From Nocardiopsis alba DSM 43377 (GTDB lineage Bacteria > Actinomycetota > Actinomycetes > Streptosporangiales > Streptosporangiaceae), in contig NZ_ANAC01000007.1 in NCBI RefSeq assembly GCF_000341225.1, positions 248,001 to 312,000 of the forward strand: 64,000 bases of DNA. The letters are read 5' to 3'. Shown here piece by piece: positions 30,910 to 47,996 of this stretch (position 1 is its first letter; every line of letters begins with the position of its first letter). A program made the position numbers and the translations under genes. The notes under the pieces are model-generated. The model searched no databases, was not told the origin of the DNA, and saw only the letters and a program-made list of their open reading frames with translations.

Positions 30910-30967
30910 TCCGCCGGCCTCGGGCTCCGGCTCCGGTGCCCGAGGCGCTCCCCGCCCGAGGACGAGA

Positions 30968-31000
30968 GCGGGGCCCGTGGTCGTCGACCACGGGCCCCGC
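30968..31000. terminator. bidirectional terminator
   Basis: A perfect 15-bp stem (30968-30982 with 30986-31000) and a 3-base loop, between the RecQ-like gene and the convergent kinase gene. Confidence 0.88.
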
Positions 31001-31010
31001 GAAGAACGTG

Positions 31011-31955
31011 TCAGCGCAGGCGCTGGCCCCTGGGGGCGCCACGGCGCACCGGCTGCCCCTCGCCCAGGTCGGGACGGGCACCGGGCTGGTGCAGGGCGCG
31101 GGCGGCCAGCCTGCTGGCCCGGCCCAGGGCCTCTTTGGGGTGGCGGCCCGCCAGCCACGCGGGCAGGAACCCGGCGATGAAGGCGTCGCCGGCGCCCACC
31201 GAACCCGGGGACGGATCCACCGGTTCGGCCGGGGCGGTCACACAGTCCTCACGGGTCTTGGAGGCCCACAGTCCGCCCTCCCCGCCGAGCTTGATGACGA
31301 CGTTGGGGAACCAGGCGGTCAACACCTTGGCGGCGGCCTCGGCGTCGTCGCGGCCGGTCAGCACCCGGGCCTGGTCGACGTTGACGAAGAGCAGACGGGC
31401 GCCCTCGGTCCAGTCCAGGAAGTTCTCCGCGCCGGCGCGTTCCAGCGGGGCGTGCGAACCACCGTCCACCGAGATGGACATGCCGCTCTCGCGGGCCATG
31501 CGCAGGGCCACCCGGGCCGCGCGGCGCGAGTCGGAGTTGATCAGGGTGTAGCCGGACACGTGGAGGTGGCCGTCGGAGGAGAAGACGTCTCGGGGCAGGT
31601 CCTCGGGCTGGAGCCTGGCGTTGGCCCCGGGGTCGCTGAGCATCGTCCGGTCGCCCCTGTGCGTGATCATGACGACGCAGGTGCCGGTCGGGCGCTCGGG
31701 GTCCATGACCATGCGCGAGTCCAGGCCGTAGCCCATGAGCTCCATCTCACGCGTACGGCCGGTGATGTCGGAGCCGCGGCGACCCACGAACGTCGTCTCG
31801 GTGCCCTCGACCGCCAGCCAAGAGGCGATGTTGGCCCCCGAACCGCCGCCGTACATGACCACCGAGGCGGGGGTGTCACTGCCCCGGGCCAACGGGTGGA
31901 ATGCGCGCGCGACTGCGTCGGTCATCAGATCACCGATCACGACCACTCGTGTCAT
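31011..31955 (-). CDS. PfkB-family carbohydrate kinase
   Basis: Encodes 314 aa. A ribokinase-fold sugar or nucleoside kinase. The N-terminal GDLMTDAVARA and GGGSGANIASWLA are the first PfkB signature. VGAGDAFIAGFLPAWL near the C-terminus holds the catalytic Asp and anion hole. The substrate cannot be read from the sequence. The ATG at 31955 starts the conserved MTRVVVIGDL. The upstream ribosome site is weak (GGTGG). Confidence 0.87.
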   Translation of the reverse strand: MTRVVVIGDLMTDAVARAFHPLARGSDTPASVVMYGGGSGANIASWLAVEGTETTFVGRRGSDITGRTREMELMGYGLDSRMVMDPERPTGTCVVMITHRGDRTMLSDPGANARLQPEDLPRDVFSSDGHLHVSGYTLINSDSRRAARVALRMARESGMSISVDGGSHAPLERAGAENFLDWTEGARLLFVNVDQARVLTGRDDAEAAAKVLTAWFPNVVIKLGGEGGLWASKTREDCVTAPAEPVDPSPGSVGAGDAFIAGFLPAWLAGRHPKEALGRASRLAARALHQPGARPDLGEGQPVRRGAPRGQRLR

Positions 31956-32197
31956 TTTCGCCAGCCACCACCGAGCGTTGAGAACCTGTGCCCGCCCGAC
32001 GTTAACAGGTGAACGATCAGGGTCGGGTAACGAAGTGACAGCGCTCCGGTACGCGGGAACGTCGGCGCCGTCGGGTCCTGGGACCCACTGGAACAGAGTA
32101 TGCGGAGTCGGGCGGAACCGGCGCCCACGAACCGGCCGTGGGGCGGTGATTTCAGACGGACCGCATGGACTTTCTCCGGATTCGGCCGTTTGTCGTC

Positions 32198-32213
32198 TAG
32201 TCTCACAGTCGTG
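32198..32213 (+). promoter_or_regulatory. leaderless-type promoter of the GNAT/acyl-CoA synthetase gene
   Basis: TAGTCT (32198-32203), seven bases, then GTG at 32211. This also decides the start over an upstream in-frame ATG at 32100. Confidence 0.55.
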
Positions 32214-34931
32214 CAGTCCTACCCGAACCACTGGGAAGCCGACGTCGTTCTGACCGACGGAGGCACCGCGCACCTGCGCCCCATCACCCCTGACGACGCC
32301 GACCTGCTGCGCGAGTTCCACTCCAGGCTCTCGCCGGAGACCATCTACTACCGGTTCTTCGCGCCCTACCCCAAACTCTCCGACCGTGACGTCCAACGTT
32401 TCACCACGGTCGACTACGAGGACCGTGTGGCCCTGGTCGCCACCATCTCCGACTCCCTGGTCGCCGTGGTGCGCTACGACAAGGTCGCCCCGGAGGAGGC
32501 GGAGGTCGCCTTCGTCGTGGAGGACGGACATCAGGGTCGGGGCCTGGCCTCGGTCCTGCTGGAGCACATCGGGGCGGCCGCGCGCGAACGCGGCATGCGC
32601 CGTTTCATCGCCGACGTGCTGCCCGAGAACCGTCGGATGATCAACGTCTTCCGTGAGGCCGGGTACACGGCCCAGCAGACCTTCGACGAGGGCGTCATCC
32701 GGCTGACCCTGGACCTTCAGCCCACGGACGGCTCCCAGGAGGTCATGCGGGCCCGTGAGCAGCGGGCCGAGTCCCGGTCCATAGCCCGCCTGCTCTTCCC
32801 CGAGTCGGTGGCGGTCATCGGGGCCAGCCGCACCGCCCACACCATCGGGCAGACGGCGCTGCGCAACCTTCTGAACGGCGAGTTCCAGGGGCCGGTCTAC
32901 CCGGTCCACCCCGAGGCCAAGGCCGTCGTGGGCGTGCGGGCCTACCCCTCCATCCTGGACGTCCCCGACCAGGTCGATCTGGCGGTGGTGGCGGTCCGCG
33001 CCGACATGGTCGTCGACGTGGTCGAGCAGTGCGCGGAGAAGGGGGTGCACGGTCTGGTCGTGGTCAGTTCGGGCTTCGGTGAGATCGGCCCCGAGGGTCG
33101 GGCCCGCCAGGACGAGCTGGTGCGCACGGCCCGTGCCGCGGGGATGCGCGTGGTGGGCCCCAACTGTCTGGGCGTGGCCAACACCGATCCCGCGATCTCC
33201 CTCAACGCCACCCTCTCCCCGGACCTGCCCGCCCCCGGGCCGATCGGCTTCTTCTCCCAGTCCGGTGCCCTGGGCCGGGCGATCCTCCAGCGGGTCGCCG
33301 AACGCGGGATGGGGCTGTCGACCTTCGTCTCCGCGGGCAACCGCGCCGACGTCTCCGGCAACGACCTCATGCAGTACTGGCAGGAGGACCCCTCCACCAA
33401 GGTCGTGCTCCAGTACCTGGAGTCCCTGGGCAACCCGCGCAAGTTCACCCGGCTGGCCCGGCGTCTGGCCAAGCAGAAGCCGGTCGTGGCGGTGCGCAGC
33501 GGAGGTTCCGCGCAGGCCACCCCCACCGGTCACGCCGCGGGCGGGCTCGCCCTGCCCGACTACGCCGTCACCTCCCTGTTCCAGCAGGCCGGGGTGGTGC
33601 GCGTGGACGACATCACGCAGATGTTCGACGCCGCCCAGCTCTTCGCCTACCAGCCGCTGCCCGCGGGGCCGCGCGTGGGCGTCATCGGCAACTCCGACTC
33701 CCTGGAACTGTTGGTCAAGGACGCCGCCGTGCGTCAGGGGCTCAAGCCCCACGAACCGGTCAACCTGGGTCCGCAGGCCACCGCCGAGGACTTCGACAAC
33801 GCGCTCCGGACCGCCCTGGCCGCCGACGACGTGCACTCGGTCGTGGTGGTGTTCGTCCCGGCCCTGCAACCGATCGGCGACGACGTCGCCCGGGTCCTGC
33901 GCGCCCGCTCCCTGGAGTCGGACAAGCCCATCGTCGCCACCTACCTGGCACGCCAGGGGCTGCCCGAGGAACTGCGCCACGTCGGCGACCTCGGCCAGAC
34001 GCTGCCCGGCTCGGTGCCCTCCTACCCGGCGCCCGAGGACGCGGTGCGCGCCCTGGCCCACGCCACCCGCTACGCCCAGTGGCGCGACCGCAAGCCCGGT
34101 CGCCATCCCGAACTGCCCGACATCGACGGCGCCCGCGCCCGCTCCGTCGTCTCCCGGGCCCTGTCCAAGGCCGACGCGGCCAAGGACGAGGTCGCCTGGT
34201 TCGGCGGCGAACGCCGCTACGACGAGGAGACGGCGATCTCCAACGAGGACACGCACGAGCTGCTGTCCTGCTACGGCATCGCCGCCTACCCCGATATCCG
34301 GGTCCACTCGGCCGACGAGGCCGTGGTCGCCGCCGGAGAGCTGGGCTACCCGGCGGTGGTCAAGGCCGACGCCCCCGACCTGCGGGTCCGCGCCGGAGGC
34401 ACGTTCGTCCGCGCCGACCTGCGCACCCCCGACGACGTGCGCAGCGCCTACCTGTCCCTGTACGACCGCTTCGGCGGCGAAGCCGAGCTGGTGGTGCAGC
34501 GGATGGCGGCCCCGGGCGTGCCCACGGTGGTGCGCGCCGGCGACAACCGCTCCTTCGGTTCGGTGGTCTCCTTCGGGCTGGCCGACGTCACCGCAGAGCT
34601 GTTGGACGACCGCTCCTTCCGGCTGGCCCCGCTGACCGACATGGACGCGGCCGACCTCATCCACGCGGTCCGGGCCGCCCCGCTGCTGTTCGGACTGCCG
34701 GCGGGCGCCACCTCGCTGGCCGAACAGCCCGACGTGGAGGCCTTGGAGGAGCTGCTGGTCCGGGTGTCCCGCCTGGTCGAGGCCTTCCCCGAGATCGGTT
34801 ACGTGGATCTGGACCCGGTTCTGGTGAACGCCACCGGCGCCCACGTCCTCGGAGCCCGCATGTGGCTGCGCGAGGCGCCCGAGGTGCGTCCGGACTCCGG
34901 CCCCAGGAGGTTGCGCGGGGTGACGTTCTGA
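32211..34931 (+). CDS. GNAT acetyltransferase / NDP-forming acyl-CoA synthetase fusion (Pat-like)
   Basis: Encodes 906 aa. An N-terminal GNAT domain (about 1-170, with VEDGHQGRGLASVLLEHI) is fused to an acyl-CoA synthetase (NDP-forming) region: CoA-binding ASRTAHTIGQTALRNL, ligase GFFSQSGALGRAIL, and a C-terminal ATP-grasp part. It resembles bacterial protein lysine acetyltransferases of the Pat/PatZ type, which acetylate acetyl-CoA synthetase. The actinomycete arrangement with GNAT first, as here, is known. Whether the synthetase half is catalytic or only sensory is not clear. Confidence 0.87.
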   Translation: MQSYPNHWEADVVLTDGGTAHLRPITPDDADLLREFHSRLSPETIYYRFFAPYPKLSDRDVQRFTTVDYEDRVALVATISDSLVAVVRYDKVAPEEAEVAFVVEDGHQGRGLASVLLEHIGAAARERGMRRFIADVLPENRRMINVFREAGYTAQQTFDEGVIRLTLDLQPTDGSQEVMRAREQRAESRSIARLLFPESVAVIGASRTAHTIGQTALRNLLNGEFQGPVYPVHPEAKAVVGVRAYPSILDVPDQVDLAVVAVRADMVVDVVEQCAEKGVHGLVVVSSGFGEIGPEGRARQDELVRTARAAGMRVVGPNCLGVANTDPAISLNATLSPDLPAPGPIGFFSQSGALGRAILQRVAERGMGLSTFVSAGNRADVSGNDLMQYWQEDPSTKVVLQYLESLGNPRKFTRLARRLAKQKPVVAVRSGGSAQATPTGHAAGGLALPDYAVTSLFQQAGVVRVDDITQMFDAAQLFAYQPLPAGPRVGVIGNSDSLELLVKDAAVRQGLKPHEPVNLGPQATAEDFDNALRTALAADDVHSVVVVFVPALQPIGDDVARVLRARSLESDKPIVATYLARQGLPEELRHVGDLGQTLPGSVPSYPAPEDAVRALAHATRYAQWRDRKPGRHPELPDIDGARARSVVSRALSKADAAKDEVAWFGGERRYDEETAISNEDTHELLSCYGIAAYPDIRVHSADEAVVAAGELGYPAVVKADAPDLRVRAGGTFVRADLRTPDDVRSAYLSLYDRFGGEAELVVQRMAAPGVPTVVRAGDNRSFGSVVSFGLADVTAELLDDRSFRLAPLTDMDAADLIHAVRAAPLLFGLPAGATSLAEQPDVEALEELLVRVSRLVEAFPEIGYVDLDPVLVNATGAHVLGARMWLREAPEVRPDSGPRRLRGVTF

Positions 34932-34999
34932 TCCGGCAGTGGGTCTCCCGTTTCGGTGGCAGGTCGCGAAGTGTCGCCGGAAGGGGGCAGGATAGAGGT

Positions 35000-35596
35000 A
35001 TGAGGAAAACACGTGCCGTGCCCACGGACTGGCGGCTGGAGATCGAACGGAGCGGGTACTACCCGGCTCTGGTCATCGACGCCGTCGCCACCACCCTGGG
35101 TGATGAGGACGCCGAGGCGTTCATCGTGCACCACGAGGCGACCTTCGACCCGGCGATGGAGATGCGGCGTCACATCACCGTGATGCTGTTGACCGCGACC
35201 CGGCTCGTGGTGTGCCACACCGACGAGCACCCACCGACGGAGCCCGGCGGCGCCTCGCACGCCTCCACCACCACCGACAGCATCCAACTGGGCAACGTCC
35301 AGTCCGTGGCGCTGACCCGGGTGGTGCCCAACCCGGCCCAGTACACGCCGGGGAGCACCCCCAGCGAACTGGTGCTCAGCGTCAACCTGTCGGTGAACTG
35401 GGGTGCCGTCGCCCACATCGACCTGGAACCGGCCTCCTGCGCCGACGAGAGCTGCGAGCTCGACCACGGTTACACCGGTGCCGTCACCGCCGAGCCCCTG
35501 ACCCTGAGGGTCAGTGAGGCGGCCGACGGGGCCGAGGCCGTCGCCTCGATGCTCCACTTCTCGGACGCGTTGTCGCGGGCGGCCCGGGGAAGGTGA
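35000..35596 (+). CDS. DUF5998 family protein
   Basis: Encodes 198 aa. It matches the actinobacterial DUF5998 family: IERSGYYPALVIDAV at the start, EATFDPAMEMRRHITV, a central PAQYTPGSTPSELVLS, and a late CADESCELDHGYTG with two cysteines. It is soluble with no signal. Function is unknown. AGAGG lies directly before the ATG, and a CAGGAT hexamer sits six bases upstream. The gene follows the Pat-like gene by 68 bases, an arrangement I recall from Streptomyces. Confidence 0.8.
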   Translation: MRKTRAVPTDWRLEIERSGYYPALVIDAVATTLGDEDAEAFIVHHEATFDPAMEMRRHITVMLLTATRLVVCHTDEHPPTEPGGASHASTTTDSIQLGNVQSVALTRVVPNPAQYTPGSTPSELVLSVNLSVNWGAVAHIDLEPASCADESCELDHGYTGAVTAEPLTLRVSEAADGAEAVASMLHFSDALSRAARGR

Positions 35597-35607
35597 CCCG
35601 AGGACAC

Positions 35608-35640
35608 GAGGGCCGGGGACCGTCACGGTCCCCGGCCCTC
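35608..35640 (+). terminator. terminator after the DUF5998 gene
   Basis: A perfect 16-bp inverted repeat (35608-35623 with 35625-35640). In practice the loop must open to three or more bases. Confidence 0.85.
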
Positions 35641-35785
35641 GTGCGTGCGGGGTCGGTGTGGGGCCCGCGGGCCGTGGAGCGCTAGCGTGTGATCCACCCG
35701 ACACCCACGGACCGTGGGTCGAACGAGTGTTCCGCGCCGTGATCTCGGCCGGCGTGGGCGCCCAACGGAGAAAGGCGAGTCCGCG

Positions 35786-36610
35786 ATGACGCAGCACCCG
35801 ACGTCCGCGACCCCCTCGGACGACACCCCGCTCGTGCGGTCGAGCGTCGACCGGGCCGTCGCCACGATCACCCTCGACTCCCCGCGCAACCGCAACGCCC
35901 TGTCCGCGCGGCTGCGCGCCGGTCTCTTCGAGGCCCTCGGCGCGGCGATGGACGACGACGAGGTGCGCGCGGTGGTGCTCACCGGCACCGGCCCCGTCTT
36001 CAGCGCGGGCGCGGACCTCAAGGAGGTCGGCGCCGCCCTCAGGGGGGAGCCGGTCGAGCCCGCGCCCGAGCTGCCGGAGATCTTCGAGCGGATCATGGCC
36101 GGCCCCAAACCGGTGGTGGCCCTCCTCAACGGTCCCGCGCGGGCGGGCGGGATCGGCCTGGTCGCCGCAGCCGACATCGCCCTGGCGCCCGCCGAGGCGA
36201 CCTTCGCCTTCACCGAGGTGCGCATCGGCGTCGTTCCGGCGATCATCTCCCTCCCTCTGTCCGCGCGGATGCACCCCCGCCAGTTCAGCCGCTACCTCCT
36301 CACAGGCGAGGTGTTCGACGCCGAGGCCGCGGTCGAGGCCGGGCTCCTCACCCGCGCGGTTCCGGAAGGGGAGATGGAGGAGGAGCTGGAGAACGTGCTC
36401 CAGGGGATGCGGGCCGCCGCCCCGAAGGCGCTGGCCCGGACCAAGAAGCTCATCGGCGAGCTCGCCGGCGGGGAGCGGATCCTTCCCGAGCGGCGCGCGG
36501 ACGAGTTCGCCCGCCTGGGGGAGCTCTCGGCGGAGTTCTTCGCCGGTGAGGACGCGGCCGAGGGGCGGACGGCCTTCTTCGAGAAACGCCCTCCCCGCTG
36601 GTCTCGATGA
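35786..36610 (+). CDS. enoyl-CoA hydratase/isomerase family protein
   Basis: Encodes 274 aa. A crotonase-fold enzyme, probably acting in fatty-acid or branched-chain acyl-CoA breakdown. The oxyanion-hole strands are FSAGADLKEVG and GPARAGGIGLVAAADIALA. The Glu residues of the classical hydratase site are not clearly both present, so the exact reaction is uncertain. The stop (36608-36610) overlaps an in-frame ATG of the next gene, but that gene more likely starts 54 bases later. Confidence 0.85.
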   Translation: MTQHPTSATPSDDTPLVRSSVDRAVATITLDSPRNRNALSARLRAGLFEALGAAMDDDEVRAVVLTGTGPVFSAGADLKEVGAALRGEPVEPAPELPEIFERIMAGPKPVVALLNGPARAGGIGLVAAADIALAPAEATFAFTEVRIGVVPAIISLPLSARMHPRQFSRYLLTGEVFDAEAAVEAGLLTRAVPEGEMEEELENVLQGMRAAAPKALARTKKLIGELAGGERILPERRADEFARLGELSAEFFAGEDAAEGRTAFFEKRPPRWSR

Positions 36611-36663
36611 GCCCGTCGTCGACCTGGGTACACCCGCTCTCCACGACAGGTCACAATGGTCGG

Positions 36664-37317
36664 GTGAGCTACTCCGGAGATACCAGGGTCGGCGGCCCCG
36701 CCGACCTGCGCCAACTACCGCATCTGACGATCACCAAGCTGGCCGTGGGCCCGATGGACAACAACGCCTACCTCCTGCGCTGCCGCGCGACGGGGGAGGC
36801 GGTCCTCATCGACGCCGCGGCCGAACCCGACCGTGTCCTGGAGATGATCGGGGAGGACGGGCTGGCCCGCGTGGTCACGACCCACCGCCACCAGGACCAC
36901 TGGCAGGCTCTGGCCGAGGTCGTGGGCCAGACCGGCGCCCGCACGGTCGCCCACCCCGACGACGCCGACGAGCTTCCGGTGTCGGTGGACGAGCCCGTCA
37001 CCCACGGCAGCACCGTCCCCGTCGGGGACTGCGCGCTCACCGTGATCCACCTGCGCGGCCACACGCCCGGATCGATCGCCCTGCGCTACGACGACCCCGA
37101 GGGGCACACCCACCTGTTCACCGGGGACAGCCTCTTCCCGGGCGGGGTCGGCAAGACCTGGTCCGACGCGGACTTCCGCACCCTGTTCGGCGACGTGTCC
37201 GAGCGTGTGTTCGGCGCTCTGGCCGACGACACCTGGGTCTACCCCGGCCACGGCAAGGACACCACGCTGGGAGCGGAGCGCCCGCACCTGTCCGAGTGGA
37301 GCGAGCGCGGCTGGTAG
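36664..37317 (+). CDS. MBL-fold metallo-hydrolase (glyoxalase II-like)
   Basis: Encodes 217 aa. A binuclear zinc hydrolase with the THRHQDHW signature (HxHxDH), later GHTPGSIAL and FTGDSLFPGGVGKT, and a final YPGHGKDT. Family members hydrolyse thioesters such as S-lactoylglutathione analogues. GTG 36664 (VSYSGDTRVGGP) is preferred because homologues start MTYSG-like and CACAAT lies six bases before it. An ATG at 36607 overlapping the previous stop is the alternative. Confidence 0.87.
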   Translation: MSYSGDTRVGGPADLRQLPHLTITKLAVGPMDNNAYLLRCRATGEAVLIDAAAEPDRVLEMIGEDGLARVVTTHRHQDHWQALAEVVGQTGARTVAHPDDADELPVSVDEPVTHGSTVPVGDCALTVIHLRGHTPGSIALRYDDPEGHTHLFTGDSLFPGGVGKTWSDADFRTLFGDVSERVFGALADDTWVYPGHGKDTTLGAERPHLSEWSERGW

Positions 37318-37326
37318 CCGGGCCGT

Positions 37327-39180
37327 TCAACCGACGTAGCAGCAGAAACCGACCCGTCCGAGATGCGCGGAGACCGCTTCGGACGGGTCGGTCCCTTCGC
37401 GCAGGGCCCGATGGAAGTCGTGCGCGGCCTCGCCGGTGGGCCCGTCGGGGACCGGCAGCGGGCTCGCCACCACGGTGCGCGTGCCCAGGGAGGTCAGGGC
37501 TCCGGGGAACCCGCCCGGTCCGCCCTGCCCGGAGAGGAAGCCGTGTCCGCCCCAGCAGGTGGCCAGGACCACCGTCCTCGGCGCCGAGGGGAGCCGTGTC
37601 AGGTCGCGGGGCAGAAGCGGACCGTCGCTCAGTTCCATCCGGGGGCGGAGCGGGGCGTTCTCGTCGACGCGACCGTGTCCGGCCAGGTGGGCCAGGTCCG
37701 CGCCCGCCAGGGCCTCCAGGAGCCGGCCCCTGCGTACGCTCCGCATGATCCGCGCCTTCGGGTGGATCCCGGACAGGGCGCGCACCTCGGTTCCCGCGCC
37801 CTCGGGGCCCGCCGCGGCGGCCAGCAGGACGCGGCGCGGATCCCGGTCGGGGGAGCGTTCCACGCGTGCCCGGGCCGTGGCGACCACGGTGATCGGGCGG
37901 TCGCGCGCCCCGGGGAACAGCCCCCAGGGCGGATCGCCGAGGTAGGGCTCCCCGGTGACGACCAGGGCCCGGGCGCCCACGAGGGGCAGGATCGGATCGA
38001 GGAGGGCCCGGCCGACCTCGGCCGGGACACGCGGTGGAGCCTCCTCGGTCACCGTCGACGTGTACGTGTACCGCATATGGGCGAGCAGCCGACGTATCCG
38101 TAGGAGCGGGCCCAACGAGACCGAGTGGACCCGTCCGGCCACCGCGACCAGGGCCAGCGCCCGATGTTCGGCCGCGACGTAGTGCACGAAGGCCCGCCCG
38201 TCCAGGGAGGCGAACAGTCGCTCCCGCACCGGTTCGTCCACCGTCCCCGGAGGGGGCGGGGCCGATCGCCCCCGGCGGAGGCGGGCCATCGCCGCCGGCC
38301 GGAGCCCTTCGGCCCATTCCAGCGCGGACGAGGGGTCGCCGTGGGCCAGCGCCCGCTCCAACCCGGCACGCACCAGAGGGAGATCGTGTGCCGCCGGACC
38401 CGACCGGGGAAGGCCCGGGTCCGTGGACCGCCTTCGCCCGGAGGGCGAGGACGCGCGGACCCGCCCCGTCGGACGGCCGGGCGCTCGCAGGGCGACCCTC
38501 TCCAGACGGGAGGCGAGCCGGTGCCAGGCCGTGCCCCGCCCGGTGCGCAGGCGGACCCGACGGGCCAGGTGCAGGGCCGCCCGATGGTCGCCGCACGACA
38601 GATGGAACCCGGCCTCCACCAGGGTGCGGGCGGACCCCGGTTCCCCGTCCCGCCAGGGCGACTCCGCCAGGGTGCGCCCCGCCTCCTCGATCAGTCCGCC
38701 GGCGAGCAGGGCCTCGGCCAGGTCGGTGCGCAGCGCCTCGCGTCGCCTCTCGGGGACCACCGGTACGAGCTCTCGGAAGGTGCCGATGGCCTCGGCGGTC
38801 TCGCCCCGGTACAGGGCCAGGCATCCCTGGTTCTGACGGGCCACCGTGTCGAGCAGGACGAGGTTCCTGGAAGCGGCCAGGGAACGGGCCTCATCCAGGT
38901 GCTCGGCCGCGGCGCCGAAACGGCCGGCCAGCGCCTGGGCCAGCCCCAGATCGACGAGCACGCCCGGTAACACCGAAGGGATCTCGGAGACGGGGTGGCC
39001 GCGCAGTGACCGATGGAGGTTCTCCAGAAGGGTGACGCCCTCCTCGACGCGGCCCGCTCCGGCCAGCCCGACCCCGAGGGAGATCCGGGACAGCAGGGGG
39101 CGGGCGGTGATCAGGACCGCGTGTTCGTCGTGCGATGAGGTGGGGGTGTGCGGGGGATCGGGGAACGCGCAGGGGGACAC
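37327..39180 (-). CDS. TPR-CHAT caspase-like protease
   Basis: Encodes 617 aa. The N-terminal 230 or so residues form helical TPR-like repeats (for example SLGVGLAGAGRVEEGVTLL, GLAQALAGRFGAAAEHLDEA). A basic, Pro/Ser-rich linker (about 230-265) leads to a CHAT domain. The caspase-type dyad is His502 in HLAGHGRVDENAP and Cys542 in LATCWGGHG. CHAT proteases cut specific protein substrates after activation of the TPR part. It is the last gene of a likely operon with a sigma factor and a small beta-rich protein. The GTG start has GAAAGG nine bases upstream. Confidence 0.85.
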   Translation of the reverse strand: MSPCAFPDPPHTPTSSHDEHAVLITARPLLSRISLGVGLAGAGRVEEGVTLLENLHRSLRGHPVSEIPSVLPGVLVDLGLAQALAGRFGAAAEHLDEARSLAASRNLVLLDTVARQNQGCLALYRGETAEAIGTFRELVPVVPERRREALRTDLAEALLAGGLIEEAGRTLAESPWRDGEPGSARTLVEAGFHLSCGDHRAALHLARRVRLRTGRGTAWHRLASRLERVALRAPGRPTGRVRASSPSGRRRSTDPGLPRSGPAAHDLPLVRAGLERALAHGDPSSALEWAEGLRPAAMARLRRGRSAPPPPGTVDEPVRERLFASLDGRAFVHYVAAEHRALALVAVAGRVHSVSLGPLLRIRRLLAHMRYTYTSTVTEEAPPRVPAEVGRALLDPILPLVGARALVVTGEPYLGDPPWGLFPGARDRPITVVATARARVERSPDRDPRRVLLAAAAGPEGAGTEVRALSGIHPKARIMRSVRRGRLLEALAGADLAHLAGHGRVDENAPLRPRMELSDGPLLPRDLTRLPSAPRTVVLATCWGGHGFLSGQGGPGGFPGALTSLGTRTVVASPLPVPDGPTGEAAHDFHRALREGTDPSEAVSAHLGRVGFCCYVG

Positions 39181-39310
39181 GTTCGGCCGCCTTTCACCGA
39201 GGGGGTCGACCGTCTTCAGTGATAGCAGCGGGAAGGGGAGGGAGGAAGCGTTCGTGTGCTGCCTGTGGACGGCCCGACCAGGGTGGATCTCCGGTTGTCC
39301 GGATAAAGGG

Positions 39311-39336
39311 GGACGGTCTTCTGAAGCGGACCGTCC
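39311..39336 (-). terminator. hairpin between the 133-aa gene and the CHAT gene
   Basis: GGACGGTC and GACCGTCC (39311-39318, 39329-39336) form an 8-bp stem in the 184-base gap. On the minus strand it is followed by CCCCCTTTAT, which could give partial termination or RNA stability. Confidence 0.4.
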
Positions 39337-39364
39337 GGCACACCCGGTTTCGGACGCCCCTTCC

Positions 39365-39766
39365 TCAGAGGACGAACCAGTCGCCGGCCACGGGCGGGTG
39401 GCCCGGGCGCTCCACGGTCAGGGAGGCCGGCCCACGTCGAAGACCCTCCGACCGGAAGCCGCCGTCGACCGTGACGAACAGGCGCGGACACCCCCAGGGG
39501 CGGTACAGCCGCACCTCCAGATGATCGAACTCCCCTCTGACGAGACCGGTGAGGGAACGTAGATCCCCTCGTGCCAGGATCAGCGCGTCGATCACCAGAC
39601 CGTCGAGATCCATGCGCAGGGTCGTCGAGGTCGTGTCCTCTCCGGCACGGAACAGGGAGTCCGGTTCCGCCCGGCCCCCGAGGAGGACGGGTGCGGGGGC
39701 GGCTCCGTCGAGGGAGCGGTCGAAGGCGGCCAGGGCGGCGTCTCGCCCGGGTTCGGATTCGTTCAC
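39365..39766 (-). CDS. beta-rich small protein of the CHAT-sigma locus
   Basis: Encodes 133 aa. About 50 disordered, acidic N-terminal residues precede a compact C-terminal domain of alternating hydrophobic strands (DHLEVRLYRPWG, RLFVTVDGGFRSEGLRRG, SLTVERPG, ending GDWFVL). The domain resembles carboxypeptidase-regulatory-like or Ig-like sandwiches seen beside other actinomycete CHAT/sigma genes. It has no membrane helix or signal. Its GTG overlaps the sigma-factor stop (GTGA), so the two are translationally coupled, as with sigma/anti-sigma pairs. A role as sigma inhibitor or protease substrate is inference. Confidence 0.68.
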   Translation of the reverse strand: MNESEPGRDAALAAFDRSLDGAAPAPVLLGGRAEPDSLFRAGEDTTSTTLRMDLDGLVIDALILARGDLRSLTGLVRGEFDHLEVRLYRPWGCPRLFVTVDGGFRSEGLRRGPASLTVERPGHPPVAGDWFVL

Positions 39767-40443
39767 GGGTCGCGCACGCCTTTCGCCGGGGTCGGCACCA
39801 CGCCCAGGGACCTGCGGAGCCTGCGGAACAGGTGCCTGCGTTCGCCGGCGGTGGTGCGTCGGGTGATCGGGGCCGCGTCGGGGGAGTCGTCCAGGTAGTA
39901 GCGGGCGACACGGCGGTCGGCGGGGTCGGTGAGTTCGTCGATGGCCCGGTGGAGTTCGGTGCGCCGTTCCCTGCTCAGGTACTCGTGTTCGGTGTCGGGC
40001 TCGGGCATGGGGTACTCGGCCAGGTCCGAGGGGTCGACCGGGACCGTTCGTCGAAGCGGGTCCCTCTGGCTCGCGCACACGTTCCGGGTCACCCGGCGCA
40101 GCCAGGGGCGGAGCAGGTGGGGGGAGCGCAGTCGGGGCAGATGGCGGTTGAGGTTGAGCCACACGGTCTGGACCGCGTCCTCCCGGTCGGGGGTGGAGAG
40201 CCCGTAGGAGCGGGCGATCCGGTTGACCATGGGCAGGTGCCGGTCCACGATCCCCTCCCAGGCGCGGGGGTCGCCGTTGCAGGCCCTCAGGACGAGTTCG
40301 GCGTCGGAACACGGCGGGAGGTCGGGGCCGATTGTGGCCGGAACCGGGCGAAAAGTGGTGAGAGCATGCCCTGAACCGCCCTTTTGGGGTGTTCGGTGGT
40401 GGGGTTTCGGTGGTGGGATGTCTTCGCGAGACTGGTCTGGCAC
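39763..40443 (-). CDS. ECF-like RNA polymerase sigma factor
   Basis: Encodes about 226 aa. Region 2 is clear: DAELVLRACNGDPRAWEGIV, then TPDREDAVQTVWLNLNRHL and LRPWLRRVTRNVCASQRD. Region 4 is weak: DELTDPADRRVARYYLDD then RRTTAGERRHLFRRLRRSLG, without a typical GxSxGTVKSR helix-turn-helix. No start lies between region 2 and an N-terminal extension, so a GTG must be used. GTG 40443 has GGGGG upstream; GTGs at 40455, 40476 and 40488 are alternatives. It is the first gene of the TPR-CHAT operon. Confidence 0.8.
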   Translation of the reverse strand: MPDQSREDIPPPKPHHRTPQKGGSGHALTTFRPVPATIGPDLPPCSDAELVLRACNGDPRAWEGIVDRHLPMVNRIARSYGLSTPDREDAVQTVWLNLNRHLPRLRSPHLLRPWLRRVTRNVCASQRDPLRRTVPVDPSDLAEYPMPEPDTEHEYLSRERRTELHRAIDELTDPADRRVARYYLDDSPDAAPITRRTTAGERRHLFRRLRRSLGVVPTPAKGVRDP

Positions 40444-40522
40444 ACCCGCCCCCACTATGATCGGACTCCCTGTCACAGCCTGGGGCACAGGCTAGCCCCT
40501 GTGTGGTCCGGGCATGGTGGGA

Positions 40523-40542
40523 ACGCTGGAAAATACCAGCGT
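40523..40542. promoter_or_regulatory. inverted repeat ACGCTGG-N6-CCAGCGT
   Basis: A perfect 7-bp inverted repeat in the gap between the divergent sigma-factor and DUF3145 genes, a likely operator or transcript hairpin. Confidence 0.5.
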
Positions 40543-40564
40543 GCGAGATGGTTCTCAGGGTGCC

Positions 40565-40583
40565 ATTGGGGCACAATGGGGCA
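40565..40583 (+). repeat. helically phased direct repeats TGGGGCA
   Basis: ATTGGGGCA (40565-40573) and AATGGGGCA (40575-40583) repeat with a 10-base period, about one DNA turn, upstream of the DUF3145 gene. Confidence 0.4.
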
Positions 40584-40663
40584 AAAGGTGTTCAAGCGGG
40601 TATGCAACCTTCTCGTGGTACGAGGGCGTCGGGGAAGCGCACTCGTTCGTATCAGGAGGTTCG

Positions 40664-41158
40664 GTGTCCGCACGTGGCGTCTTGTACGTCCACTCCGCGC
40701 CCGCGGCGCTGTGCCCACACGTCGAGTGGGCGGTCGCGGGTGTCGTTGGAGTACCCGTGAAACTCGACTGGGTCGCCCAACCGGCGGCCCCCGGCCATCA
40801 CCGCGCCGAGCTCAACTGGCAGGGAAGGGCGGGGACCGCGGGAGAGGTGGCCTCGGCGTTGAACGCGTGGCAACGCCTGCGTTTCGAGGTGACCGAGGAG
40901 GGGTCGCCCGGCTGTGACGGGGTCCGTTACAGCTACACGCCCTCCCTCGGGGTGTTCACCGCCATCACCAGCGCCGCCGGAGAGGTCCTCGTGCCCGAGG
41001 GACGCCTGCGCGCGGCCATGGAACGGGTCGCCGTGGAGGGCGGAGACCTCGCGGCGGAACTCGACCGACTCACGGGGCGCGCCTGGGACGAGGAACTCGA
41101 ACCCTTCCGCTACGCGGGCGACGGCGCCCCCGTCCGCTGGCTCCACGCCGTCGGCTGA
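40664..41158 (+). CDS. DUF3145 family protein
   Basis: Encodes 164 aa. It matches the actinobacterial DUF3145 family end to end: RGVLYVHSAPAALCPHVEWAV at the start, a central RFEVTEEGSPGCDGVRYSYT, and EELEPFRYAGDGAPVRWLH at the end. It is soluble, single-domain and of unknown function. AGGAGG (40654-40659) lies close upstream of the GTG. It is divergent from the sigma factor of the CHAT locus with a 220-base gap full of repeats. Confidence 0.88.
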   Translation: MSARGVLYVHSAPAALCPHVEWAVAGVVGVPVKLDWVAQPAAPGHHRAELNWQGRAGTAGEVASALNAWQRLRFEVTEEGSPGCDGVRYSYTPSLGVFTAITSAAGEVLVPEGRLRAAMERVAVEGGDLAAELDRLTGRAWDEELEPFRYAGDGAPVRWLHAVG

Positions 41159-41172
41159 CCTCCGAGCCCCTG

Positions 41173-41193
41173 GAACCCCTAGGCCGGGGGTTC
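41173..41193. terminator. hairpin between convergent DUF3145 and DUF1707 genes
   Basis: GAACCCC and GGGGTTC arms (about 41173-41179 and 41187-41193) overlap the DUF1707 stop codon. Confidence 0.5.
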
Positions 41194-41643
41194 GGCGTCG
41201 CCGGGCCAGATGGCCGAGGCCAGCAGGACCGCGGCCCAGATCCCCAGCGGGACCAGCGGCCAGTAAGGGATGAGCTCACCGCCCACCAGACTGGCCGTCG
41301 CCCACATGGCGGTCAGCAGTACCCCGGCCCCCGACCACCACCGCCACTCCTCGCCCCATTCGGAGCGGGCCGGGCCCCGGCCCGTGGGCGTGGGCCGAGA
41401 GGGACGCTCCCGTTCCCGATGCGGTCGCGGCGCGGGAACGACGAGGGCGGGGGCCGGGATGTCGGCGGTCAGGGAGCGCAGCTCACCGACCAGGACCGCG
41501 TTCAGGGCCTCGCCCACCCGACGTTCGTACTCGTCGTGGTCGAGTCGGCCCTCGGTGAAGGCCACGGCCAGACGTTCGATCGTCAGATCGCGGTCGGTGT
41601 CCGAGGCGCGCATCAAGTGCGCCGGCAGACGTCGGACCTCCAT
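41179..41643 (-). CDS. DUF1707 membrane protein
   Basis: Encodes about 154 aa. The N-terminal DUF1707 (SHOCT-like) segment MRASDTDRDLTIERLAV, then TEGRLDHDEYERRVGEAL, is followed by a Pro/Arg linker and two membrane helices (about residues 105-123 and 130-148). Such proteins are common in actinomycetes, and their role is unknown. ATG 41643 is chosen because GGGGGTGG lies about five bases before it. A GTG at 41676 in frame lacks such a site. Confidence 0.72.
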   Translation of the reverse strand: MEVRRLPAHLMRASDTDRDLTIERLAVAFTEGRLDHDEYERRVGEALNAVLVGELRSLTADIPAPALVVPAPRPHRERERPSRPTPTGRGPARSEWGEEWRWWSGAGVLLTAMWATASLVGGELIPYWPLVPLGIWAAVLLASAIWPGDAEPPA

Positions 41644-41709
41644 TTCCCACCCCCTGAGGCGCGAGTCGGTGACCACACGATACGTGGCGCGGACGGCACG
41701 CGAAAGAGC

Positions 41710-42558
41710 TCACGGAGAGCGATTCCCGGAGCCTTCCGGGGACCTCTCCTCGGCCCCTGTCCTCGCAGGTGGAGAGCTCGCCCAGTGGGCCACGGCGCGG
41801 CAGGTGGACGGGTCGGCGGCTCCCACCAGACCGGTGTGCTCATAGGGGCCCCGATAGGTGAAGGCGGAACCGTCCAGCAGGGTCACCCGGCCGCCCGCCT
41901 CGGACAGGACGAGATCGGGGGCGGCCACGTCCCAGTCGCGCACCGGGACGTCTTTGACGAACAGATGGGCCTCGCCCCCGGCGATCCGGCACAGCTTCAA
42001 CGAGATGCTGCCGCTCTCCAGATAGGAGCCGTAGCCGAAGTGGTCGTAGACCCGCCGTGCGATCCCGGAGGGTTCGGGGGTGTTGTCGGTGAGGACCCCC
42101 TCGCCCGGCGCGGTCGTGGCCGTACGGGGCAGTTCCACCCCGTCGCGTCGGGCCCCGAGCCCGCGCACGGCCGTGTACAGGGTGTCGAGCTGCGGGGCGT
42201 AGACCGCCGCCACCTCGGGCCGGTCCCCGATCATCAGGGCGGCCTGGGTGACGTACCCGTCGAAGCCGTGAACGTAGCTGGCGGTCCCGTCGATCGGGTC
42301 GATCAGCCAGTACCGCTCCGGCCGGCTCCGCGACAGCGAGTCGGGGTCCTCCTCGCTCACCACCGGGATCCGTCCGTCGATCCGGGACAGGCGCGCGGAC
42401 AGCTCGCGGTGGGCCAGGGCGTCGGCCTCCGCCTTGAACTGGGAGCCCCGCCAGACCCCGTCGAGCGCGCCCGGGGCGCCGCGCCGTTCGCGCAGGAGCG
42501 CGCCGACCTCGGTGACCGCCTCGGCCACCGCCTCCGAGAGCGGGTGACGGCCGCTCAT
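41710..42558 (-). CDS. inositol monophosphatase family protein
   Basis: Encodes 282 aa. A Mg2+-dependent phosphatase of the IMPase/CysQ superfamily. Metal-site motifs are PVVSEEDPD and WLIDPIDGTASYVHG, with DWDVAAPDLVLSEAGG at the C-terminal site. The substrate could be inositol phosphate, PAP or a sugar phosphate. The ATG overlaps the upstream stop (ATGA), so translation is coupled to the ATP-grasp gene. Confidence 0.85.
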   Translation of the reverse strand: MSGRHPLSEAVAEAVTEVGALLRERRGAPGALDGVWRGSQFKAEADALAHRELSARLSRIDGRIPVVSEEDPDSLSRSRPERYWLIDPIDGTASYVHGFDGYVTQAALMIGDRPEVAAVYAPQLDTLYTAVRGLGARRDGVELPRTATTAPGEGVLTDNTPEPSGIARRVYDHFGYGSYLESGSISLKLCRIAGGEAHLFVKDVPVRDWDVAAPDLVLSEAGGRVTLLDGSAFTYRGPYEHTGLVGAADPSTCRAVAHWASSPPARTGAEERSPEGSGNRSP

Positions 42559-43658
42559 CGCGTACGCGCCGGGGGCGCCGGGGCGGCGGGGCCGGGGATC
42601 GTGGTCCCCGGCAGGACGAGGCCCTCGCCGTTCCGGGTGGGCAGGGGCGCGGGGGAGAGCCCGTGCGAGACGAAGCGCTCCTCGTCGAGGAACTCGTCGG
42701 TCCACCGTCGGACCATGGTCACGCCCTCCCGCCAGTCGTCGGTGAGCCGCCCTCCCGAACCGAGGGCCTGACGCAGTAGCCCGGCGATCTCGTCCACCCC
42801 GGCCGCGGTGGTCAGCGCGGCGGTGGAGGAGAAGCGGGGGTTGATCTCGAAGATCCGGGGCCGCCCCTCGGCGTCCAGGCACAGTTGCACGTTGAACGGC
42901 CCGTCCGCGCGCAGCGCCTCCTGGACGGCGACGCAGGTACGGACCACCTCGGCGTGGCGCCTGGTCACCGCGTACTTGGTGACGCCCTGTTTGAGGAGGA
43001 CCTCCTTGGGGACGACCGCCTGCACCTCGCCGTCGCGCCAGACGACCACCGACACCGTGTACTCGGGGCCGGTGACGCGTTCCTGGACGATCAGTTCGTC
43101 GGCGGCGTATCCGCTCTCGGAGATCGCCCCGGCCAGGTCTCGGACGGAGTCGACGATGGTGACACCGCGGCTGCCCCGACCACTGCGCGGTTTGACGATG
43201 AGACCGCCGGGGGCGTCCTCGATCGCGTCGGCGGGCCACTCCGAGGCCGACCAGGTGCGCGGCACCCCGATCGAGGCCTCCTCCAGCCTCCGGGTCAGGA
43301 CGTACTTGTCCAGGCAGGTCGTCACGAACCCGGCCCGGGGCAGCAGGACGGCGATCCCGTCCTCGGCCAGCTCGCCGATCCGGAGCAGTTCCTCGTCCAC
43401 GAGGGGGATGACGGCGACCGCGCGTTCCTCCTCGCACAGGGCCCGCATCCGGGGGAGGAAGGCGTCGCTGTCGCCCGGGGGCACCAGGTGGCCGCGATCG
43501 GCCAGGTACAGCCCCGGGGCCGTCGGGTCCACGTCGGTGGCCACCACACGGAAACCCTGCTCGCGCAGGCGCAGGATGGTCCCCGGGGTCGGGGCCGAGC
43601 CCGCCGTCGTCACGATGACCGTCGGTTCTCCCGAGTCATCCGAAGCCTTCTGTGCCAC
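42555..43658 (-). CDS. ATP-grasp domain protein (CarB/PylC-like)
   Basis: Encodes 367 aa. An N-terminal Rossmann-like preATP-grasp domain (VIVTTAGSAPTPGTILRL) is followed by an ATP-grasp fold with GGLIVKPRSGRGSRGV, a VQERVTGPEYTVSV block, and a metal/ATP segment PRIFEINPRFSST. Such enzymes join a carboxylate to an amine or thiol using ATP. The substrate is unknown. GTG 43658 has GGAAGGG about ten bases upstream; a TTG at 43667 is less likely. Confidence 0.82.
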   Translation of the reverse strand: MAQKASDDSGEPTVIVTTAGSAPTPGTILRLREQGFRVVATDVDPTAPGLYLADRGHLVPPGDSDAFLPRMRALCEEERAVAVIPLVDEELLRIGELAEDGIAVLLPRAGFVTTCLDKYVLTRRLEEASIGVPRTWSASEWPADAIEDAPGGLIVKPRSGRGSRGVTIVDSVRDLAGAISESGYAADELIVQERVTGPEYTVSVVVWRDGEVQAVVPKEVLLKQGVTKYAVTRRHAEVVRTCVAVQEALRADGPFNVQLCLDAEGRPRIFEINPRFSSTAALTTAAGVDEIAGLLRQALGSGGRLTDDWREGVTMVRRWTDEFLDEERFVSHGLSPAPLPTRNGEGLVLPGTTIPGPAAPAPPARTR

Positions 43659-43821
43659 CGGTGTCAACCCTTCCAGACGTTCGTCGGATCGGTGTGGTGG
43701 GGATGGACCGAGCGTAGACCGAAGGGGCTCGCGGCGGCCCCTGTTTGGCCGGATCCGGCTCACGGGACAACCGAACCCGGCTCTCGCGCGTGTATCCAAC
43801 GACCCCGGGAGGAAAAGGGTC

Positions 43822-43853
43822 GAGGGTGGGGAGCGCGTGCGTTCCCCACCCTC
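43822..43853 (-). terminator. terminator of the PEBP gene
   Basis: GAGGGTGGGGA (43822-43832) pairs perfectly with TCCCCACCCTC (43843-43853), 25 bases past the stop. Confidence 0.8.
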
Positions 43854-43878
43854 GTGGCGTCTCCACCGGTGAGAGGCC

Positions 43879-44409
43879 TCAGCCCTGCTCGTAGACCGGG
43901 GTGATGAGCGCCCGGCCCAGAGCGTGCGAGAACAGGTTGAAGCCCAGGAAGGCCGGGCTCGCGGAGGAGTCCAGGCCCAGGCTGGGCACGTCCACCGCGT
44001 GCACCGCGAAGATGTACCGGTGCGGGCCGTGCCCGGCGGGCGGGGCCGCGCCGATGTAACGGTGGCCTCCGGCGTCGTTGCGCAGGGTCACGGCCTGTTC
44101 CGGCAGGCCGGAACCGTTGCCGGCGTCGGCCGCCAACTCGGTCACGTCGACGGGGATGTCGCACACGACCCAGTGCCAGAACCCGCTCGCGGTGGGGGCG
44201 TCGGGGTCGAAGCAGGTGACGGCGAAGCTCCGCGTCTCCTCGGGGAAGCCGCTCCAGGACAGCTGCGGTGAGACGTCCTGTCCTCCCGCGCCCATGATCC
44301 CGCTGACCTGGGCCGTGGGCAGGGTCTTCCCGTCGGCGACGTCGGTGCTGGTGACGGTGAACGAGGCGACCGGGGGCAGGAAGTCGTAAGGGGAGGGTGG
44401 CGTGGCCAC
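43879..44409 (-). CDS. PEBP family protein (YbhB/YbcL, Raf kinase inhibitor-like)
   Basis: Encodes 176 aa. A phosphatidylethanolamine-binding-protein fold with the hallmark [17 protein letters not shown] and [13 protein letters not shown] anion-pocket segments. Bacterial members have no firm function. There is no signal peptide, so it is cytoplasmic. GTG 44409 is chosen because AAGGAGG lies eight bases upstream. A longer reading upstream is not conserved. Confidence 0.87.
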
Positions 44410-44532
44410 GACGATGGCCTCCTTGGTTCTCGTGGATGTGCGTACCGGCCCGTGATCGGGCCCGCTACGAACATACGCCCCTGGAAGGGGAGGGGCGCGG
44501 AGCACGATGGGAGAGTCCGGCACTGTATCGCC

Positions 44533-45729
44533 TCACTCCAACGGGCCCAGGAGTCGTCGGGCCCGCAACACCAGCCCCAGTTCGAAGCGTGTGTCCGGTT
44601 CGCGTAGTCGGGCTCCGAACAGTTCCTCCAGGCGCCGCATCCGATAGCGCACCGTCTGTGGATGGATGCGCAGACGCTCGGCCGCCTCGTTGGCGTTGAA
44701 GCCCGATTCCAGCCAGGCCAGCAGGGTGTCGGCCATCCGGTCCCGCTGTGGTCCCCGCATCCCCCGCAGGGGAGCCAAGAGCCGGCGGGCCATCGCGGCG
44801 ACCAACGCGGTGTCCCGGGACAACAGCAGTTCGGACAGGTGGTCGTCCCACCGGGAGAGTCCGGCGCCGGGGATCGCGCCCGAGCGCACCAGTTCCGCCA
44901 GCTCCCGGGCGCGCGAGAGCGACAGGGACGCTTCGATGATCGGCACCGTGGGCCCCATGACCGCGCCGAAGCCGCGCAGGGACCGTTCCAGGGAGCGCAG
45001 CCGGCCGGGCCCCTCCGGGTCGGGTATCAGGGCGCACGGCTCCGCCCGTTCCAGGTCCACCAGCACGTCCGACGGCGGCGCCGGGGCCGAAGGGCCCTCG
45101 ACGTCCTCGCGGTACAACAGCGCGACGGCCACCCGCTCCGGGACCCGCCACCGTGCGGAGCGGGCCAGGGTCGCCAAGGCGCCCGGGGTCGGGGCCGTCC
45201 CGGACTCGCCCAGCAGCACCTCCAGTAGCCGGGAGCGACGGCGGCGCAGCTCCTCCACCCCGGCTTCGCGCACCCGGGCGTACCCTTCCGAGGCCGCCGC
45301 CGAGACCTCCTCCTGGAACGCGAAGACCTCGTCTCCCAGGGCGGCCATGCGGTCGGGGGAGACCGCCCCGGAGCCGGCCACCCGCCGCCAGGTCACCGCG
45401 GCGGCCACGCGCATCCCGTGGTGCAGGCACTCCAGGGTGCGGCCCCGCCCGGCCTCGTCGGCGCCGAAGGCACGGAAGACGCGGACGAGGGCGTCACGGT
45501 TCTCCGAGGTGGGGCCGTGCTCGACCCGGTCCAGGAAGGCGCGCAGGGCCGTGGTGAGCACCCGTCGCGTCTCCTCCAGATGTTCCAGGGGGTGAGGGTG
45601 GCCCCTCGCCGTGTACGCGAGTTCGGCCAGCACCTCGTCGACCAGCTCGGAGACCGGTGGGAGCGGCCGTGGGGGCGGCCCCGCGCGGAGGACCTCGGGG
45701 GCGGCGGCCTCCTGCCATCGGTACGTCAT
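44533..45729 (-). CDS. PucR/CdaR-type transcriptional regulator
   Basis: Encodes 398 aa. The C-terminal PucR HTH domain reads GFNANEAAERLRIHPQTVRYR followed by RMRRLEELFGARL. The N-terminal half is a mostly helical sensory region without a named ligand domain, and the middle resembles the GGDEF-like segment of CdaR proteins. Relatives control purine, sugar-acid or stress genes. The target is unknown. GGAGG precedes the ATG. It is divergent from the lipoprotein gene. Confidence 0.85.
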   Translation of the reverse strand: MTYRWQEAAAPEVLRAGPPPRPLPPVSELVDEVLAELAYTARGHPHPLEHLEETRRVLTTALRAFLDRVEHGPTSENRDALVRVFRAFGADEAGRGRTLECLHHGMRVAAAVTWRRVAGSGAVSPDRMAALGDEVFAFQEEVSAAASEGYARVREAGVEELRRRRSRLLEVLLGESGTAPTPGALATLARSARWRVPERVAVALLYREDVEGPSAPAPPSDVLVDLERAEPCALIPDPEGPGRLRSLERSLRGFGAVMGPTVPIIEASLSLSRARELAELVRSGAIPGAGLSRWDDHLSELLLSRDTALVAAMARRLLAPLRGMRGPQRDRMADTLLAWLESGFNANEAAERLRIHPQTVRYRMRRLEELFGARLREPDTRFELGLVLRARRLLGPLE

Positions 45730-45915
45730 GTCACCTCCGGCGCGGACGCACGACGGAGTCGAACGGGCACGCCCGCGCGTGCTCTGTGCGCCAGACGGCG
45801 ACCGTGACCCCGGTCACCTTCCTCCATCCCATCAGAGGCCTTCCCCACGAACAAGACCTCTCTCCGGACCGTTAGGGTGCGATCGAGACGAACCCCCCTT
45901 CCGGAAGGCCTTCCC

Positions 45916-46398
45916 GTGCGACGCTTCCTGCTGTGCTCCCTGCCCCTGGCCCTGGCCCTGACCGCGTGCGGCGAGGCGGAGTCGGACCCCTCGGAGGAGG
46001 GGACCTCCGCGGAGGCCGCGGCGCCCGACGACGTCGCCGAGGTGGAGGCGGCCGCGCGAACCGTCGCCGAGGGGTTCGTCGCCTCCCTGAACGCCGAGGA
46101 CGCCGAGGCGGCCTGCGCCTTCATGGACGTCTCCGCGCAGGAGGCCGTCGCCTCCCTGAGCGAGGGGTCGGATGACTGTGTCGAGGCCTTCCCCGAGTAC
46201 GCGGCGGGCCTTCCCGACGCCGAGGACGTCGAGATCGAGGAGATCACCACCGAGAGCGAGCTGGACGGCGGCGTCGAGGTCGTGGTCGTCACCCTCGTCC
46301 ATCCGGACGAGGAGGTCGGCGCCCTGGAGATGCGCGAGTCCGAGGACGGCGAATGGCGGGCCACCCGTCTTCCCGGGCTCTCCCTCGGAGGCGCGTGA
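45916..46398 (+). CDS. lipoprotein with NTF2-like/DUF4878-type domain
   Basis: Encodes 160 aa. A lipoprotein signal with lipobox LALTAC directs lipid attachment at Cys16 or so. The exported domain is small and acidic (VAEGFVASLNAEDAEAACAF, late GEWRATRLPGL) and looks like the NTF2-like accessory lipoproteins of actinomycetes. Function is unknown. GTG 45916 is chosen because GGAAGG lies seven bases upstream and it begins the signal peptide. A TAGGGT hexamer lies at 45873-45878. Confidence 0.78.
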   Translation: MRRFLLCSLPLALALTACGEAESDPSEEGTSAEAAAPDDVAEVEAAARTVAEGFVASLNAEDAEAACAFMDVSAQEAVASLSEGSDDCVEAFPEYAAGLPDAEDVEIEEITTESELDGGVEVVVVTLVHPDEEVGALEMRESEDGEWRATRLPGLSLGGA

Positions 46399-46551
46399 GC
46401 GGGGGCGATCGGGGCCACGGGCCCGGGTGATCGGACGAACACCGCGCCGGGGCGTTCGGCGGGGCCCGAGACGCTCCGGCTCTGGAAGAGTGGTGACCGG
46501 CGGGCACGGAACGACCGGGTGCCCGTGTTCCAACGAGAAGTGAGGTGCGCG

Positions 46552-46872
46552 ATGATCCTCATCGTCGTCAAGTTCCGCGTCAAGCCCGAGGTCGGGGACG
46601 GTTTCCTCGACGCGGTCGCCGACTTCACCGCGGCCACCCGGGCCGAGCCCGGCAACCTGTGGTTCGAGTGGTCCCGTAGCGTCGAGCGTGAGAACGAGTT
46701 CGTGCTCATCGAGGCGTTCAAGGACGACGCCGCCGAGGCCCACGTGAACAGCGACCACTTCCGGGACGGGCTCGCGGCGATGAAGCCGCTGCTCACCGAG
46801 ACCCCGCTGATCGTCAGCCGCCTGGTCGAGGGCGAGGGCTGGGACCGGATGGGCGAACTCACCATCGACTAG
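46552..46872 (+). CDS. antibiotic biosynthesis monooxygenase (ABM) family protein
   Basis: Encodes 106 aa. A dimeric alpha/beta ABM fold (LIVVKFRVKPEVGDGFLDAV, then EPGNLWFEWSRSVE and NEFVLIEAFKDDAAEAH) as in quinol monooxygenase YgiN and many cofactor-free oxygenases. GAGGTG precedes the ATG 46552. The aldo-keto reductase gene starts 19 bases after the stop, so both are probably one operon handling reactive small molecules such as quinones or carbonyls (inference). Confidence 0.83.
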   Translation: MILIVVKFRVKPEVGDGFLDAVADFTAATRAEPGNLWFEWSRSVERENEFVLIEAFKDDAAEAHVNSDHFRDGLAAMKPLLTETPLIVSRLVEGEGWDRMGELTID

Positions 46873-46891
46873 CCGAGAAGGAGAGCGGGCG

Positions 46892-47941: not shown

Positions 47942-47955
47942 TCGTCCCGCGTTCG

Positions 47956-47985
47956 ACGGGCGTCGGTGCTCGCACCGGCGCCCGT
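47956..47985. terminator. bidirectional terminator
   Basis: ACGGGCGTCGGTGC (47956-47969) and GCACCGGCGCCCGT (47972-47985) pair with one G-U, between the reductase gene and the convergent small membrane gene. Confidence 0.75.
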
Positions 47986-47996
47986 TCGCGGTCTCT

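Follow-up and report, generated by a model that had tools for sequence, protein, structure and literature searches.

A sigma factor gene, a coupled small gene and a TPR-CHAT protease gene in Nocardiopsis alba: a conserved locus and a possible proteolytic switch

The stretch analysed here (the window) comprises 64,000 nucleotides of the soil bacterium Nocardiopsis alba DSM 43377 (genome of 5.8 Mb; contig NZ_ANAC01000007.1, positions 248,001 to 312,000), and open reading frame analysis placed on its minus strand, in this order, a gene encoding a sigma factor of the extracytoplasmic function (ECF) type, a gene encoding a protein of 133 aa, here named sml, and a gene encoding a TPR-CHAT protein (Table 1). 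An earlier note, made from the sequence alone, had described these genes as a CRISPR-free operon and proposed, by analogy with Csx29 and Csx30, that the protease releases the sigma factor. Its observation was confirmed, with all three genes read on one strand where it had placed them, and its interpretation was partly supported. The sigma protein matches Sigma70_r2 (PF04542, E 1e-11) and TIGR02937 (47.2 bits, cut-off 42.9).

The GTG start of sml overlaps the sigma stop codon by 4 nt, and a start at -4 recurs in 31 of 39 loci of the genus Nocardiopsis, which bears out the coupling described in the earlier note. The model of sml (mean predicted local distance difference test score, pLDDT, of 79.9) predicts a helix at residues 6-15, then a poorly predicted stretch and, from residue 45, a beta sandwich resembling many immunoglobulin (Ig)-like folds, for which a structure search with the model found no clear relative. 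No sequence match was obtained to PDB chains at E up to 1, and a weak CarboxypepD_reg match (E 0.091, 13.6 bits) remained below the cut-off of 32.3. Arg40, which lies in the poorly predicted stretch, is kept in 117 of 119 aligned sml sequences; the two exceptions are a sequence with an Arg beside the column and a match that does not include the region. The surrounding columns (28-47) are variable, none exceeding 51% once an insert column of 8 letters is set aside. In 112/119 sequences Arg40 is followed by S, A, D, G or C, and in 67 of the 80 rows from outside the genus it is preceded by V, L, I or M.

The CHAT domain of the third protein (PF12770, 67.5 bits, cut-off 24) is the sole CHAT match in the genome, and all TPR matches in this protein fell under their cut-offs. 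Among the 37 genus CHAT frames whose end lies within the contig, 36 keep the catalytic His502/Cys542 dyad, numbered as in the earlier note, and the one that does not is a locus with a broken frame (L041); each of the two residues is found in 104/105 aligned CHAT rows. The broken CHAT frame (L041 of genome G008; L103), from an 84%-complete assembly, could be an assembly error. The modelled fold resembles both Csx29 and separase. Separase is the eukaryotic caspase-like protease that separates human chromosomes. The catalytic half of the model superposes on separase (5fc2_B) with a root mean square deviation of 3.1 over 285 residues at 13% identity. A later residue, Asp579, is present in 103/105 rows and, by its place after the Cys, is a candidate S1-pocket aspartate when set beside the separase work (PMC10317155). 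At the C-terminus (window 37330-37350) the protein has a conserved Gly-Phe-Cys-Cys ending, in which Gly611, Phe612 and Cys614 are invariant in 21 aligned proteins.

The three genes proved to be conserved as a set. Within the genus, sml occurs once per genome in 39/40 genomes, including 36/36 good ones, the single miss being an 85%-complete assembly, and the order and strand of sigma, sml and CHAT are kept in 38/38 other loci. As far as the contigs reach, the trio mostly lies between the same flanking genes: DUF3145 at one end, and at the other metallo-hydrolase, enoyl-CoA hydratase and acyl-CoA synthetase-like genes. The flanking genes that were tested, at both ends, are of the metabolic or DUF kind. 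Identity to the window is 36-58% for sml and about 80-95% for the DUF3145, metallo-hydrolase and synthetase neighbours, so the trio changes rapidly while its position stays constant; the locus belongs to the core chromosome and is not a defence island.

Beyond the genus, the sml profile matched 216 of 297 genomes of the order (49/62 genera), and a broader profile matched 123/394 genomes of the class and 46/396 genomes of the phylum, 30 of the latter outside the class. In loci hand-chosen to spread over genera (40 from the order and 40 from the class outside it), sigma and sml share a strand in 39/40 and 38/40, respectively, and a CHAT gene lies inside the fetched stretch in 39/40 and 31/40. 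The 394 class genomes divide into 118 with sml and CHAT, 5 with sml only, 20 with CHAT only and 251 with neither, and outside the window's own order the corresponding counts are 70, 5, 20 and 251; Fisher values for this co-occurrence are not to be taken as probabilities because the genomes are related. A CHAT gene was present in the fetched locus of 4 of the 5 genomes with sml only, so the CHAT search was limiting there.

Transcription of the trio as one unit, as the term operon in the earlier note implied, was upheld in part. An operon is shown only for sigma and sml, and a single three-gene transcript is unproven; the three genes are not called one operon here because 184 bp separate sml from CHAT in the window and CHAT has its own upstream block. 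In 38/39 genus loci CHAT homology starts 184-1236 bp past sml; in the remaining locus (L069) the N-terminal part of CHAT was not matched. Long gaps were noted in L042 (G012), of ~0.65 kb, and in L037 (G009), of 1.1-1.2 kb. A loose form of the CGCTGCTATCACTGA block is visible before CHAT in the genus alignment, and CGCTGCTATCACTGG, within one mismatch, stands at CHAT in 18/40 genus genomes. All exact matches of the block (9/9) are at CHAT, and the 17 one-mismatch matches away from CHAT do not exceed the 21 of a reversed control pattern; the block is thus not a multi-copy motif. Comparison of the sigma and CHAT upstream regions established no common motif. A palindrome, GTGCC-N5-GGCAC, was observed at window 40560-40574 between the DUF3145 and sigma genes, reads GTGCCCCAAGGGCAC in several genus rows, and is a possible operator.

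The sigma start was placed at 40443, in agreement with the end coordinate in the earlier note, by the aligned upstream DNA, in which GTG or TTG is followed by a CCAGACCAG-like stretch; of 23 named loci, 19 have the start codon with a CC-GA/AA pattern in the sigma frame. The frame is also open further up, where a GTG at 40488 would give 241 aa.

Table 1. Coordinates of the trio and its features in the window
Feature	Position	Strand	Remarks
ECF-type sigma factor, 226 aa	39763..40443	-	from conserved GTG; region 2 clear, region 4 helix-turn-helix shortened
sml, 133 aa	39365..39766	-	GTG overlaps sigma stop; modelled helix 6-15, low-confidence stretch, Ig-like beta sandwich from 45
sml Arg40 codon	39647..39649	-	117/119 aligned sml; proposed cleavage site (inference)
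TPR-CHAT (separase/Csx29-like) protein, 617 aa	37327..39180	-	
CHAT catalytic His502 codon	37675..37677	-	104/105 rows
CHAT catalytic Cys542 codon	37555..37557	-	104/105 rows
CHAT Asp579 codon	37444..37446	-	103/105 rows; candidate S1-pocket aspartate
CGCTGCTATCACTGA block, promoter-like	39216..39230	-	36-50 bp before CHAT start
Conserved block GGGAGTCCGATCATAGTGGGGGCGG	40446..40470	-	directly upstream of sigma start

A further partner was found in relatives. The gene between or beside members of the trio was a Peptidase_S8 subtilase in 5/5 cases tested, and a profile built from six such proteins detected the module subtilase in 27/40 loci of the order and 31/40 of the class (including five from the training set), against 0/39 genus loci. 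The 53 linked S8 proteins outside the training set score at least 120 bits (lowest 120.4); the best of the four S8 genes in the N. alba genome reaches 45.7 bits, and none of the four scores like the module type. In one genome (G384) CHAT lies 1.8 Mb from the sigma-sml pair, with two divergent S8 frames beside CHAT; these two module-type frames, in tandem at locus L236, differ, with scores of 443 and 250 bits. The S8 subtilase belongs to the same set in many relatives, and the window's genus is without it at the locus. A Pfam scan of the sigma protein gave no region 4 match; most of the 22 sigma rows viewed have there an ordinary helix-turn-helix with GSIGPTR-like residues, and the genus sigmas have a gap and other residues at this position. 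A loose region 4 signature is missing in 51/118 sigma rows, namely all 39 from the genus, 11 from other subtilase-free loci and one (L156) with a subtilase. It is retained in 56/57 subtilase loci and in 11 subtilase-free loci; a stricter signature splits the 57 subtilase loci into 50 and 7. The 11 subtilase-free loci outside the genus that lack the signature are L123-L126, L128, L129, L133, L138, L139, L149 and L151. In this lineage, then, lack of the subtilase is associated with a drifted promoter-reading part of the sigma factor.

The CRISPR-free description in the earlier note is correct for the locus and does not extend to the genome. A repeat scan of window 30000-50000 found no CRISPR-like array, the only direct repeats being two imperfect families (3 x 29 nt at 72-79% and 2 x 22 nt), and no Cas7-11 gRAMP gene was present among the flanking genes tested. 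Nine matches to RAMP (type III CRISPR) proteins were found elsewhere in the same genome, on contigs C14, C15 and C32. One RAMP protein of TIGR03986 (351 bits) was noted at G000:C15:153000-165000 (L233:2811-5600:-), and PF03787 matches occur in 39/40 genus genomes, most of which have two, so that a type III-like RAMP locus seems to be part of the core of the genus.

Because Arg40 is near-invariant within a variable linker and the protein co-occurs with a separase-like protease, the alignments suggest that Arg40 is a cleavage site. The proposed mechanism, favoured tentatively and held at somewhat less than an even chance, is that sml, as a presumably soluble, translationally coupled regulator, would bind and restrain the sigma factor; the protease, presumably triggered through its TPR part, active and Arg-specific, would cut sml after Arg40, in the part that joins the N-terminal helix to the beta sandwich, and the cut would free the sigma factor. 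This reading draws directly on the genes, their conservation and co-occurrence, the catalytic residues, the modelled protease fold and the almost unchanging Arg40, set in a stretch that is variable and poorly predicted.

Several observations weigh against release by cleavage at Arg40. An invariant Arg40 may equally bind the sigma factor or CHAT, and Ala25 and Ala22, further upstream, are themselves 90% and 74% conserved. An ExxR motif is almost missing outside the genus (1/80), and the looseness of the linker is only predicted (mean pLDDT of 48 for residues 31-40, with 24 related sequences). For Csx29, the closest analogue, no single residue of the Csx30 loop proved essential according to PMC10028731, which calls for caution. 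Nine of the 40 class loci, one of them without a sigma match, hold no CHAT in the stretch, and in 20 class genomes CHAT was found and sml was not detected; sml may be diverged there, or there may be none. Finally, for the sigma group ECF54, proteolytic control was proposed without any anti-sigma factor in the relevant passage of a 2022 review (PMC8999054), on the basis of nearby carboxypeptidase, subtilase and CHAT domains.

That last proposal leads to a different account, in which the sigma factor itself is degraded and held at a low level by CHAT, together with the subtilase in loci that have one, and sml is an adaptor or protector. Two kinds of protease beside the sigma-sml pair in many loci would fit such degradation. 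However, no column among 118 sigma rows exceeds 90% in residues 131-216, a span that takes in the linker between regions 2 and 4, so the sigma factor offers no counterpart of Arg40 in sml, and sml remains with sigma where CHAT is unlinked; degradation of the sigma factor is considered quite unlikely. The same persistence of the sigma-sml pair bears on the idea that sml is no anti-sigma factor and instead regulates the protease, either as an adaptor or as a securin-like pseudosubstrate with Arg40 docked in the CHAT active site. The presence of CHAT in nearly all sml-positive genomes and the restraint of separase by a pseudosubstrate, described in a passage of PMC10317155, are consistent with this idea, but sml is coupled to sigma and not to CHAT, and it retains its Arg where securin, in the same passage, has a hydrophobic residue in place of the P1 Arg. 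This role appears improbable. Equally doubtful is an arrangement in which CHAT is the output of the system, the sigma-sml pair sensing a stress and transcribing a protease that acts on other targets. The upstream block of CHAT in the genus, which is not multi-copy, speaks for this arrangement; a sigma factor reading that block would, however, imply further copies at other target genes, and the sigma and CHAT upstream regions yielded no shared motif.

Should cleavage of sml at Arg40 hold, it would give sigma factors of this kind a concrete on-switch whose predicted cut site could be tested with one mutant, would explain the role of many actinobacterial CHAT proteases, and would place next to the CRISPR-linked circuit of Csx29, Csx30 and sigma a chromosomal relative that is more widespread. 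A wider proposal, which we regard as rather unlikely, is that a CRISPR-independent, separase-like switch operates throughout the Actinomycetota, in which a TPR-CHAT protease would cut a soluble Ig-fold sigma regulator after an invariant linker Arg, and that CASP is a specialised case of an older sigma/CHAT circuitry.

Among known systems, DdvA (PDB 8rw5, 8rot) differs in being, by entry title, a transmembrane anti-sigma factor. Separase shares with CHAT a close fold of the catalytic half, as well as the conserved His-Gly, Cys and later Asp; the identity in the structural alignment is 13%, and an Arg specificity of CHAT is putative. The type III-E CASP/Craspase system (Csx29, Csx30, CASP-sigma) likewise has a sigma factor of ECF-like type and a third protein, alongside a TPR-CHAT protease that shares the fold, and to this extent the analogy drawn in the earlier note stands. 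It fails in that the trio locus has no Cas7-11 or CRISPR RNA, and in the third protein, since Csx30, which is cut within the C-terminal domain, is at least 565 residues long, as stated in PMC10028731, whereas sml has 133 aa. The closest published likeness is to ECF54, attributed to Huang 2015 and Casas-Pastor 2021 in the passage of PMC8999054 concerned. As described there, it includes actinobacterial ECF sigma factors with CHAT nearby, as in the window and the genus loci, and with an S8 subtilase, as in the relatives; for the carboxypeptidase-type neighbour, sml offers only the sub-threshold match, and the genus loci differ in having no subtilase and a shortened sigma region 4. The wider set thus matches the published ECF54 group at the level of gene neighbourhood, which makes the association less novel. 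That passage is silent on any coupled small protein, on anti-sigma activity of such a protein and on a site of cleavage, and the literature searches made brought up no publication describing either a small coupled regulator or a cleavage site for a sigma/sml/CHAT set. What is new here is the predicted layout of sml, with a helix, a poorly predicted linker and an Ig-like sandwich, together with a near-invariant Arg40 whose flanks resemble those of a protease site. The window locus is a subtilase-free variant of a partly described kind.
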